Below, one piece after another: positions 43,258 through 46,977 of a stretch of 64,000 nucleotides of DNA. The DNA is taken from NCBI GenBank assembly GCA_036784855.1, contig JAZDSV010000004.1:310001-374000 (forward strand), written 5' to 3'. The notes below the pieces were generated by a model. That model was not told where the DNA came from and made no database searches. It worked only from the letters and a program-made list of their open reading frames with translations. Numbering within the stretch: position 1 is the first letter of the stretch; every line of letters starts with the position of its first letter. The position numbers and the translations under genes were made by a program. The DNA is from Aphelidium insulamus (Eukaryota; Aphelidiomycota; Aphelidea; Aphelidiaceae).

Positions 43258-44101
43258 TGGTGCTTCATGATGGCATAATGAACCGGGCAATTACCAAAGA
43301 AACAAATATTTATTAGTTTAGCAAATCTTTAGTATATCTGAATTCACCGCAACTATACAGGTGGCGCCGCCGCATTTGCTTGTGCGACCTTGACCGACTG
43401 GGCCACAGCCTGTTAGGCGCAAATATAAAAGCGTGGTGGTGGCGCACGATTGCAACACGCACAATTTGAGTAATCTGCGCGAAAACCGCCTAAGAGTGCG
43501 GAGCGCAAAGTCCTATATTGAACAATATAACGCCACGCCTCCTGATTGGCCTGCATAACCAGGTGGTGGTGGGGCGTCTTCAATTTGATTGAAATTGCTA
43601 CTGCAGACAACGCGATTAGCTGACTGCAATGTCGATTATTGTTTTAATATATTGCTTTAATGCGATTAGTCCGTTGATATATTGAAATTTGTACGTCACT
43701 GCGCCGATAAAAGCGGCGCAAATCTCTTATTTTCCTTTGTGCCTCCCAATTTTGTACATTCCCGAGCACGCCGAACACACAACGACACTTACAAGACGCT
43801 TACAACACACACACACACACACCAGTATGGTAGCCAAATGTTTCTATGTACATTCCTAACCGATTAGCAAAAAGCTGTACTGGCTCTACTGTCTCGGCAA
43901 ACGTCAAGGCAGCTGAGTATTAACTCAGGTGGGTTAAAGCATTAATGCGTTTTTGCGTCACATGTATGTTGTTCACAAGTACTAATAATATAGCTAATAA
44001 CTACACACTGTGAATACAACTGTCATTCACAAGAGTTACCGGCAAATATCAACGTATGCGTATATAAGAAGTGATATCACAAATCATCTCACGGTGTACA
44101 G
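43258..44101. other. upstream flank of the Fanzor gene with a putative promoter
   Basis: No coding sequence seen. A TATA-like GCGTATATAAGAAG lies near 44060, about 40 bp before the Fanzor ATG. A perfect 16-nt inverted repeat (TATATTG-AA-CAATATA) lies near 43512-43528. A (CA)n run lies near 43805-43822. The left end of any transposon carrying the Fanzor gene should be in this stretch, but I found no terminal inverted repeat by eye. Confidence 0.5.
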
Positions 44102-46098
44102 ATGAAACGCGCTTCAAAGCGTGCAGCTGGAGCCCCTCCAAGGCATGATGCTGCAAAACGTACGATCCTTGATGGACAGTCACATAGTGCGCATCGAATG
44201 GTGACTTATCAGACGATCAATACTGGCCTAAAGGGCATTCTTAAGGCTGGATCAAACGGTTCAACTGCAGATCAGACTTTGACTGATATCAAGTCGGCAG
44301 TCTATCAAGCCATAGCATTATTCAAAGATTACGTGCTCCGGGAATACAATGCCGGAAACCCGCTTCCACGTATATCTCGAAATTTTGTCAAGCTGACGAT
44401 TAAATTGCTGGCTTTACCGCCGCGAAATGGCCATCACTTTGGGCCGAATGCAAGAGCAAATTCAGCCCCGCGTGGAAATGTTTTTGCGCGACATGGAGGT
44501 CCATCGTGACAACTACACTGGACTTTCAAACGTCATCGAGTTTCTAACCATCGAGATCATAACAATGTACGAGAACAATATTAAGCTGCACTTTGTGGAC
44601 TATGTGCAGCGTTTTGTGAACATTTCAATGAACATGCGAGAACGGCTACTTGCGTTCAAGGAGGATCAAAATGTCGAGCGACGGCGAGCGGCAAAGTCTC
44701 ACTTTTGTGACTTGCTGAAGCGCGTAAAGACCGACCTACTTAGTCATGGTGATCTTACTGCCGAGCCAGAGCATCACGAATGGATTCAAGCTCAGCGACT
44801 TCATGTCCTACCGCAGCGTGAATTGAACATCAATGCGGCATACGATTCTCAAAATTCACCTCAGGACTACTTGCGACCAATGATATACATGATGCGTTTG
44901 GTGGAGGCACGTGGTGAGAAGCTACTCAACGTAATTCCGTTGCGCAACAACATTATCCCAACCCATATACGACTTGACACCAAAGCATTGATGGACATTT
45001 GTTTCCCCCACATCGAAGACAGGCAGGTCGACTTTAAACCGCTAAATGCTGTGAACAAGAACCGAGTGTGGCGTCTCTTTTTCAAACTTGACAAAAAAGC
45101 ATTCCGACCTCGAAATGACAATGAGGATCAGTTTCATTTTGATTACCAAATTCAAACCGACGGTGTCAGCTGCAGCATTTTACTGAAAAAAGAGGTCATG
45201 GTGCAAGGAGATCAAGTACACGTTGCGGCTCAGAATAACGATATATACATTGACGAACTACCAAACTATGACAATTGATGCGTAAAACCATTGTGGCCAT
45301 TGATCCAAACATGGGAAATTTGCTTTACTGCGTGGATGGAACAGGCATGCATGATACTTAATGTGATACATCTATTAACAGTTGTAGAAAAGAATCAAGA
45401 CAAGTTTCGCTACACTCAGCAGCAGCGCAGAAAAGAAACGCAATTTTCCGAGTACAGGCACATTCGCCGCAACAAAACGTCACGAATGGCCGGAGACAAG
45501 TATGTGCGAGAGTGGGAGAATGAACTAAGCGCGCTCAATTCAAAATCGCTAAATGTGGATCGATTTCGCGAATATTGCGTGGCCAAAAACAGATGCAACT
45601 TACAACTATTACCAGTTTACAGGGAGTGCATGCTTCGAAAGCTGAAGCTCGGTAGCTATATACTGCGCCAAAAATACCGAGGCCAAGATGATCAAGATAT
45701 TTCGACAGAAATATGGCGGCCCAGATGAAGCCATTGTGGCAATTGGAGATTGGGCGCAGCGGCAGCATCGACCCTTCAAGGAACCAGTCAAAGGCAAAGG
45801 TTTTCGAAAAACGCTGCGCAGGGCTGGATATGAGGTGTACTTGGTGAATGAGTTCAGAACCAGCAAATACTGTAGTCACTGTGGCTCGGTAGGAGTAGCG
45901 AGTGAGTGCAAATGGTTTCAGCATTAGACCAACCCAAATCCAAATCGGATAGCTACAGTCAAAGATCGCAGTCGGCTCAGGTGTACAACCTGTAGTCGCC
46001 TGTGGAATCGAGATTGCAACGCGGCGTCAAATATTTGGATAGCAGCAGAGAGTGCAATACATGGTCGAGAACGACCACGCCATCTGCAACGAGCGTAG
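44102..46098 (+). pseudogene. Fanzor (eukaryotic TnpB homologue), RNA-guided nuclease, with frame breaks
   Basis: Fanzors are eukaryotic relatives of transposon-encoded TnpB, shown in several species to be RNA-guided DNA endonucleases. The N-terminal part (44102..45278) is basic and helical with no named domain. The RuvC part has IVAIDPN (Asp at 45302-45304), KFRYTQQQRRKETQ, AIVAIGDW, HRPFKEPVKGKGFRKTL, VNEFRTSKYCSHCG (Glu at 45850-45852) and WNRDCNAASNI (Asp at 46012-46014); the zinc ribbon is CSHC ... CTTC. Candidate introns are 45345..45387 (GC-AG, TATTAAC branch) and 45889..45927 (39 nt, GT-AG; removes an in-frame TAG). Frame still changes near 44400, 45275 and 45675, where no splice acceptor fits. 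So it is a very recent pseudogene, or has sequence errors. The uninterrupted length would be about 640 residues. Confidence 0.85.
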
Positions 46099-46242
46099 CA
46101 CGCAAGGGGTCTCAACTTCGGTTATGCCGGACAGTCCCGCCACAATGCTAGATCAATTTCTAGTAGTTAATATTTACTTGAGTAGCATTGCGCTGATTGG
46201 TCGGCAGACGGCCAGGCCTTTTTTCACTTACGTGCAATTGCA
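46099..46242 (+). ncRNA. candidate guide-RNA (fRNA/omega-RNA) region after the Fanzor gene
   Basis: In TnpB and Fanzor systems the guide RNA is usually encoded next to or overlapping the nuclease 3' end. Here the 144 bases between the Fanzor stop and TIM23 contain a possible stem TTCGG-TTATG-CCGGA near 46118 and a CTAGA/TCTAG inverted repeat near 46150-46164. This is inference from position and small hairpins; no conservation was tested, and part of it must be TIM23 promoter. Confidence 0.3.
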
Positions 46243-46977
46243 ATGAGCGGCCAAGATCGCGACGAGGCAGCGGCCACCGGTACCGGCTATGACTCAGCCG
46301 TGGACACCAAGTCTGCCGCGGAGACCCGGTACGACTCGATTCAGATCTCGCAAGAGTATGGCTCGCCTGATCAGCCCGATTACTCGAAGCAAGAGTCACC
46401 CTACACGGTCAGCGCCATGCTGAACGGCCTGGGCGCAGAGACTGGCGCCCTGCGCACCCCGTTGGCCGGCATGCCAGCATTTTCCGGGCAGGGTGGTGGT
46501 CAAGTAGACTATTTGTTCCAGGATGAGGTGAAGCGACGCGGCGAGCGCGGTCTGGGCGAACGGCTGTGCTACAATACGGGTACATTTTACGGACTCGGTC
46601 TGGCAACAGGAGGCCTGTGGGGTTTGGCGGAGGGGCTGCGCGTGCCTGCTGGAACGCCAATGAAGCTGCGCGTCAACTCGTTGCTAAATGCGTGTACGCG
46701 TCGCGGGCCACTTCTCGCAAACTCTGCTGGAGTTGCAACCCTGTTTTTCACCACGTTCTCGCACACCATTTCCAAGGTTCGCGGCTCTGACGACCATTTG
46801 AACGATATTGCAGGTGCGACTGTTGCCGGACTACTCTTGAAGTCCACGGCGGGCGTGCAGACCGCCCTCAAGACTGGCGCGGTATTTGGCGGCGTGGCTG
46901 CCATTGTCTGCGGCACTGCCTACCTCTATCGACAGCGGCAGGAAGAGGCTAGATACGGCAGTGTTCTGCATCACTGA
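46243..46977 (+). CDS. TIM23: mitochondrial inner-membrane import channel Tim23
   Basis: Core subunit of the presequence translocase. Single exon, 244 residues. The hydrophilic N-terminal half faces the intermembrane space (acidic and Ser/Tyr-rich). The C-terminal half has the Tim17/22/23 domain: NTGTFYGLGLATGGLWGLAEG, LRVNSLLNACTRRGPLLANSAG, and TVAGLLLKSTAG and GAVFGGVAAIVCG, giving about four Gly-rich membrane segments. The start ATG is the first in frame, 145 bp after the Fanzor stop. Confidence 0.93.
   Translation: MSGQDRDEAAATGTGYDSAVDTKSAAETRYDSIQISQEYGSPDQPDYSKQESPYTVSAMLNGLGAETGALRTPLAGMPAFSGQGGGQVDYLFQDEVKRRGERGLGERLCYNTGTFYGLGLATGGLWGLAEGLRVPAGTPMKLRVNSLLNACTRRGPLLANSAGVATLFFTTFSHTISKVRGSDDHLNDIAGATVAGLLLKSTAGVQTALKTGAVFGGVAAIVCGTAYLYRQRQEEARYGSVLHH

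Follow-up and report, generated by a model that had tools for sequence, protein, structure and literature searches.

The nuclease gene at positions 44102 to 46098 is best explained, with a probability of roughly 0.85 for the reading as a whole, as part of a dead, left-truncated copy of a transposon family that carries Fanzor1 and probably moves by the mechanism proposed below. Positions are those of the window, the whole 64,000-nucleotide stretch analyzed, which corresponds to C108:310001-374000 in an assembly of 17,953,404 bases and 169 contigs. The gene in the window copy is of a known kind and is dead; the family is notable for the chassis on which it is built, for a second gene (ORF1), and for a prediction about target motifs. 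Chitin synthase matches at two loci in the assembly agree with a fungal host, without proving it; the chitin synthase family is not strictly limited to fungi.

Identity of the window copy

Translation of the window placed all motifs named in the original prediction on the forward strand within 44102 to 46098, in the claimed order. MKRASKRA starts at 44102 in frame 1, and YENNIKLHF lies in frame 2. RuvC motif I (IVAIDPN; 45290 to 45310) is in frame 1, the conserved stretch KFRYTQQQRRKETQ at the start of exon 2 occupies 45402 to 45443, and KFRYTQ is in frame 2. AIVAIGDW (45730 to 45753), VNEFRTSKYC with RuvC motif II (VNEFRTS; 45844 to 45873), and the first CxxC of the zinc ribbon (CSHCG; 45871 to 45885) are all in frame 0. 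The second CxxC (CTTC; 45982 to 45993) and RuvC motif III (WNRDCNAASNI; 46003 to 46035, frame 0) together span 45982 to 46035, and the final stop is at 46096 to 46098. All three catalytic residues and the ribbon are present, as predicted. The original prediction does not mention that the motifs are spread over three frames (0, 1, and 2) and that an in-frame stop (45925 to 45927) separates the two CxxC pairs. A loose pattern of the three catalytic motifs, in order and within 1.2 kb, matched once on the forward strand of the window and never on the reverse strand; base-shuffled windows, scanned on the forward strand only, gave a match in 0 of 100 cases. The pattern was composed after the motifs had been seen.

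Two forward-strand frames (44102 to 44509 and 44397 to 45278) hold the remnant of the first Fanzor1 exon, its REC/WED part, with matches to SpuFz1, GtFz1, and PpFz1; against the PDB, the piece from 44397 to 45275 gave E values of 4.7e-12, 2.5e-8, and 2.8e-6, respectively. The open piece at 45646 to 45924, which contains AIVAIGDW, motif II, and the first CxxC, matched PpFz1 (E = 7.7e-12) and SpuFz1 (E = 7.6e-6). Judged by these matches, the window piece is Fanzor1, which supports the Fanzor gene of the original prediction. The piece scores below the profile cutoffs. For the zinc-ribbon domain PF07282 it reached 23.4 bits (E = 6.9e-5; cutoff, 26.3), compared with 37.4 bits for the related locus L019, and for NCBIfam guided_TnpB the scores were 17.6 bits (window piece) and 38.1 bits (L019) against a cutoff of 100. 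The best PDB match of L019 was PpFz1 (2.7e-29), with SpuFz1 at 1.5e-25, and the two stop-to-stop frames of L013, representing the two exons, matched PDB Fanzor1 at 3.8e-17 and 2.4e-15. The first-exon frame of L013, which belongs to the same subfamily (A) as the window copy, has 1,648 homologues at an E of ≤0.001 among 4,608 scored candidates, the best hit being 42% identical. The published Fanzor1 signature is D-X(125,275)-[TS][TS]XX-C4 zinc finger-X(5,50)-RD (PMC3627910), and the translation of L019 reads accordingly (D623, TS at 796-797, two CxxC pairs, and RD five residues further). Every part of this signature is present in the window copy but split over frames and by a stop. A search of a phage collection with one window piece returned 0 matches.

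Alignment and frame reading point to a GC-AG intron of 37 nt at 45345 to 45381 on the forward strand (43 nt with an alternative acceptor ending at 45387), which would account for the frame step from IVAIDPN to KFRYTQ. This intron is present in the subfamily A copies that cover the site (L014 is deleted there), and the frames of the other two subfamilies, B and C, have no intron. The remaining frame changes in the window copy are, by the same alignment, damage.

A Fanzor1 family of three subfamilies

Searching the assembly for further copies with two window pieces yielded 23 firm Fanzor loci and two marginal ones (C2 and C153). The copies fall into three Fanzor1 subfamilies with a protein likeness of about 45%: A is approximately 42 to 46% identical to B or C over a long REC/WED piece, and B is 44% identical to C over 621 codons. 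Subfamily A comprises the window copy, L009 to L014, L022, L023, the partial L021, and C53; subfamily B comprises L015 to L018, L026, and L027; and subfamily C comprises L019, L020, L024, L025, L028, and C96. Two pairs (L022/L023 and L015/L026) are segmental duplicates. Fanzor copies lie within a few kilobases of the ends of contigs C95, C12, C117, C38, C53, C96, C115, and C149, a placement that could stem either from a preference for subtelomeres or from repeats at which the assembly broke.

A shared left module with a second gene

A full member of the family is about 5.4 kb long (L019) and runs from a left end (A|TC) through ORF1, the Fanzor1 gene, and a conserved 3' stretch to CTAG|T. The left module, approximately 2 kb with ORF1, is common to copies of all three subfamilies and was found whole or in part in L009 to L013 (A), in L015, L018, and L027 (B), and in L019, L020, L025, and C96 (C). 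Although the Fanzor proteins of the subfamilies are only about 45% alike, the DNA of this module is 88 to 96% alike across A, B, and C copies over most aligned stretches, the exceptions being L012 versus L027 (84%) and about 500 nt of L018 (only 75 to 80%). The ORF1 of L017 is only 64 to 69% alike in DNA, and no left module of the shared kind was seen in L016.

ORF1 has five predicted exons, with the same intron positions in the aligned copies, and is broken in several copies. Over its first 184 codons, the L019 and L017 variants share 69% amino acid identity with a dN of 0.233 and a dS of 1.351, and the resulting ratio of 0.17 shows that ORF1 has been retained as a protein. The L019 variant had no match in Pfam and none among 2,113 word-sharing candidates of a large protein collection, a search limited to relatives that have short exact words in common. 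For the L017 variant, Pfam, NCBIfam, and PHROGs gave no match, and the best PDB match was at chance level (0.78). A known transposase was rejected as the identity of ORF1 on the absence of Pfam, NCBIfam, PHROGs, PDB, and protein-collection matches; our guess would be a DNA-binding transposition helper. We also considered other cargo at the ORF1 loci that lack Fanzor. Of nine such places, four were looked at, C156 and C132 in short pieces and C107 and C98 at length, and the latter two turned out to be deletion derivatives.

Element ends and proposed mobilization

No inverted repeats appeared at the element ends that were inspected. The left end reads A|TC in six of the seven full-length left ends inspected (L010, L011, L013, L019, L020, and L025) and T|TC in L027, with the exact base uncertain because the end lies within ATC repeats (L036 is an example). 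The right end is CTAG in 21 of 22 independent ends and CAAG in L037, and the next base is T in every one of the 22 independent right ends that the match covers completely. This count leaves aside L041, in which the match stops 17 nt short and CTAG is followed by G, as well as L011, C96, and others, in which the contig runs out or the sequence was absent from the comparison. The second base after the right end varies with the subfamily when duplicates are counted once: A in 8/9 A-type ends, A in 6/7 C-type ends, and C in 6/6 B-type ends.

In the left-truncated copy L015, the 11-bp sequence TCGTGGAACAA stands immediately after CTAG and recurs without a mismatch at the left junction (chance expectation for such an exact duplication, about 5e-6 for one copy and about 7e-5 for all 15 copies tested). 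Candidate duplications in L010 (6 bp) and the window copy (5 bp) could be due to chance, and the full-length C copies L019, L020, and L025 have no notable matching duplication at their junctions. Derivatives reduced to the right end or internally deleted (L037, L038, L040, L041, L042, and L045) were found for A, B, and C types, and C-type right ends without the gene keep the conserved core.

Just before CTAG, where Helitron1-type elements carry a hairpin, subfamily B has a long and strong one (z of -5.9 to -6.8 in the last 60 to 100 nt). The terminal fold is moderate in subfamily A (z of about -3 to -3.6, with 10 nt of host flank in the input) and no better than shuffles in subfamily C. For the conserved 3' stretch, the z scores were -4.92 (B), -2.27 (A), and -0.96 (C), and Rfam gave no match. 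In the window copy, sister alignment delimits the 3' noncoding stretch up to CTAG (46099 to 46163, forward strand), a candidate guide RNA scaffold and candidate terminal hairpin; the fold of 46040 to 46165 has a z of -2.29.

Helitrons insert between A and T. Because of the TC...CTAG ends, the AT insertion, the right-end-only copies, the left truncation, and the duplication at a truncated copy, we regard the family as probably consisting of non-autonomous Helitrons that depend on Helitron mobilization. Helitron1-type ends are 5'-TC and CTRR-3', and the Fanzor1-bearing Helitrons of Chlamydomonas likewise show an excess of 3' ends and duplications at truncated copies (PMC3627910).

A rather unlikely alternative is that some other, unknown transposase without a need for inverted repeats moves the family and that the Helitron-like ends are coincidental. 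It would fit with the search for the Helitron Rep/helicase (PF14214), which returned 0 matches and no control match either, with the weak hairpins in A and C, with the left end blurred by ATC repeats, and with the G after CTAG in L041. It does not explain why T follows 22 of 22 right ends and A precedes the left TC in six of seven cases, or why three full-length C copies lack a duplication while a truncated copy has an exact one of 11 bp, as in the published Fanzor Helitrons.

Under Helitron mobilization, a rolling-circle (Helitron-type) Rep/helicase acting in trans would copy the element and insert it between A and T. Copying that halts early would produce copies without the left part, such as the window copy; in the window copy, however, the left part could instead have disappeared once the element was in place. 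We infer that the Fanzor1 of an intact member would be loaded with an RNA composed of the right end and the adjoining host sequence, the latter serving as the guide. The nuclease would then cut the empty allele beside an AT-based motif, and repair would copy the element in.

Loci with PIF1 helicase matches were considered as the missing partner and set aside, as none of the 6 rows (of 21) inspected by eye was Rep-like or had a Rep part. A protein containing a PIF1-type helicase part recurs at L032, L033, L034, and C63:5569 (contigs C165, C162, C10, and C63, respectively) in open frames of 336 to 1,049 amino acids, and in L032 it also has a long N-terminal part. This protein looks like another mobile element.

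Comparison with described Fanzor1 elements

Fanzor1 is already known from fungi and from Helitrons (PMC3627910, PMC10432273), and given the 1,648 homologues, the original prediction of an undescribed system was too strong. The novelty lies in the present example, in ORF1 as a partner gene, and in the match of the AT insertion site to the ATN motif of Parasitella Fanzor1, which can be tested.

The elements CRe-1, -2, and -3 of Chlamydomonas reinhardtii, of the Helitron2 type (Bao and Jurka 2013, PMC3627910), resemble the family described here in that an intron-bearing Fanzor1 gene sits on a non-autonomous Helitron-like element, 5'-truncated copies have flanking duplications, full-length copies have none, and 3' ends are in excess. 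They are described as inserting after TTTT and as having two hairpins with asymmetric inverted repeats (PMC3627910), whereas our family has TC...CTAG ends as in Helitron1, an AT site, and ORF1 as a second gene. The multicopy Fanzor1 of the fungus Spizellomyces punctatus (SpuFz1) and its ghost loci also show conserved right ends even without the gene, but those elements have 30-nt inverted repeats, and the described SpuFz1 locus is a single reading frame (PMC10432273). Near-identical 5' parts on different 3' parts have been reported for Sola2-Fanzor1 PPa-1, -4, and -5, in which the 5' part encodes a Sola2 transposase (PMC3627910); here, that part encodes ORF1, which has no known relatives.

PpFz1 of Parasitella parasitica (PDB 9cf0) has an ATN target motif, which fits the A|T insertion site, and a folded insertion inside RuvC (FRI) (PMC11423790). 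In L019, a long repeat-coded stretch rich in R, G, and H stands before RuvC motif I, where a 27-bp tandem repeat array (L019:4410-4591) lies in the open frame. The RNA scaffold of other elements takes in the fixed next bases (PMC10711439). If the same holds here, the bases at the left and right junctions would give the target motifs ATA in subfamilies A and C and ATC in subfamily B, the left base being readable for B in two copies only, L015 (A) and L027 (T).

One chassis thus combines three Fanzor1 subfamilies, young near-identical copies, gene-less right ends, and a right-flank base that varies with the subfamily (TA or TC). The prediction that follows is that the target motif of each nuclease is the insertion site of its own element, for which the ATN motif of PpFz1 is suggestive, and ORF1 is a conserved protein that can be tested as a transposition partner. 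The biological role of Fanzor cutting has been stated to be unknown (PMC10432273).

More tentatively, and with odds that we put well below even, the family may be a two-gene Fanzor1 transposon. ORF1 would then serve Fanzor1 as its dedicated partner within a rolling-circle element. A single chassis, with its A|T site providing the motif, would have received interchangeable Fanzors whose target motifs match it (ATA in A and C, ATC in B), and the nuclease would recopy the element precisely where the transposase inserts it. Mariner elements carrying Fanzor1 and two other genes have been described (PMC3627910), and we found no Helitron-type Fanzor1 element with an ORF1-like companion in the open-access literature searched, which includes few subscription papers.

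Open relatives and CpG decay

The original prediction also held that sister copies may be fully intact and active. Sister copies exist, and L019 has a fully open stop-to-stop frame of 877 amino acids, as predicted from its sequence, with all catalytic residues (in IVGIDPN, VDEHRTS, and ARDRNAATN) and two CxxC pairs. Relative to the near-identical L020, L024, and L025, it shows a 1-nt insertion and, at a distance of about 35 nt, a 1-nt deletion, so that a short inner stretch of L019 is read in another frame than in these sisters, whose own frames are broken by other 1-nt gaps. Pairs of C copies differ by 5 to 21 substitutions in approximately 2.7 kb and by 8 to 16 gap openings, nearly all of single bases. 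The single-base gaps among L019, L020, L024, and L025 look like assembly error, which casts doubt on many of the single-base frameshifts seen in this genome. In L013, the gene is open in two pieces, with frames of 466 and 272 amino acids that overlap at the intron.

In subfamily B, L017 has an open frame of 765 amino acids with Asn in motif I, and L018 has one of 663 amino acids with Asn in motif III. Because active GtFz1 has Asn at the third catalytic position (PMC11423790), only the motif I change would be expected to kill the nuclease. The dN/dS ratio between the Fanzor genes of L017 and L018 is 0.64, which points to weak recent constraint.

Bacteria have TnpB-derived repressors, and subfamily B could in principle be a comparable lineage, nuclease dead yet spreading. 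Motif I reads Asn for Asp in L015, L016, L017, and L026 (L015 and L026 being one duplicated locus), and the long frame of L017 has stayed open. We nevertheless dropped this explanation as very unlikely, because parallel CpG decay suffices. Among five B copies (L015, L016, L017, L018, and L027), the 121 CpG sites have 34 transitions, against 33 other changes at the 845 remaining sites. Both catalytic Asp codons stand in CpG contexts and have changed in conflicting combinations among the copies, and an Asn in motif III does not preclude activity, as in GtFz1 (PMC11423790). The CpG-transition excess in B suggests cytosine methylation and decay linked to it; subfamily A shows an approximately twofold excess (28 on 379 versus 76 on 2,290).

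Decay of the window copy

By blastn and alignment against its sisters, the subfamily A element copy in the window extends on the forward strand from a left break at 43324 to the CTAG end at 46163, beyond the span given in the original prediction. Everything to the left of 43324 is absent, so that the left end and ORF1, which make up the left module and are present whole or in part in the sisters L009 to L013, are missing. Within the copy, alignment against the sisters revealed at least deletions of 1 and 20 nt at about 44307 to 44322 and of 11 nt at about 44448, together with frame changes by a single base at about 45272 and 45671. The internal stop falls within a run of substitutions. Near 46140, a 16-nt deletion has removed part of the conserved 3' stretch, and eight sister copies keep these nucleotides. 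Substitution divergence from six sisters is 3.7 to 5.6%, compared with 0.8 to 3.8% among the sisters themselves; the window copy has the highest mean divergence of the seven subfamily A copies compared and 70 private substitutions.

The original prediction had taken the surviving motifs as a sign that the copy is recent. That view finds no support, given motifs in three frames, the deletions, the stop, the 16-nt loss, the missing left module, and the largest mean divergence, and we rejected a recent or active window copy on its frameshifts, stop, deletions, and divergence. By its sequence, the copy is a relic. A functional window copy that looks broken only through assembly errors, as the single-base gaps among near-identical C copies might suggest for its single-base shifts, is extremely improbable, since single-base errors do not account for the 20-, 11-, and 16-nt deletions, the stop among substitutions, the 70 private substitutions, or the absence of the left module.

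The window copy has a rhodanese-domain gene on one side and a Tim17/22/23-family gene on the other. Its right end lies 79 bp upstream of the ATG of the latter (46163 to 46243) and may be part of the promoter region of that gene.
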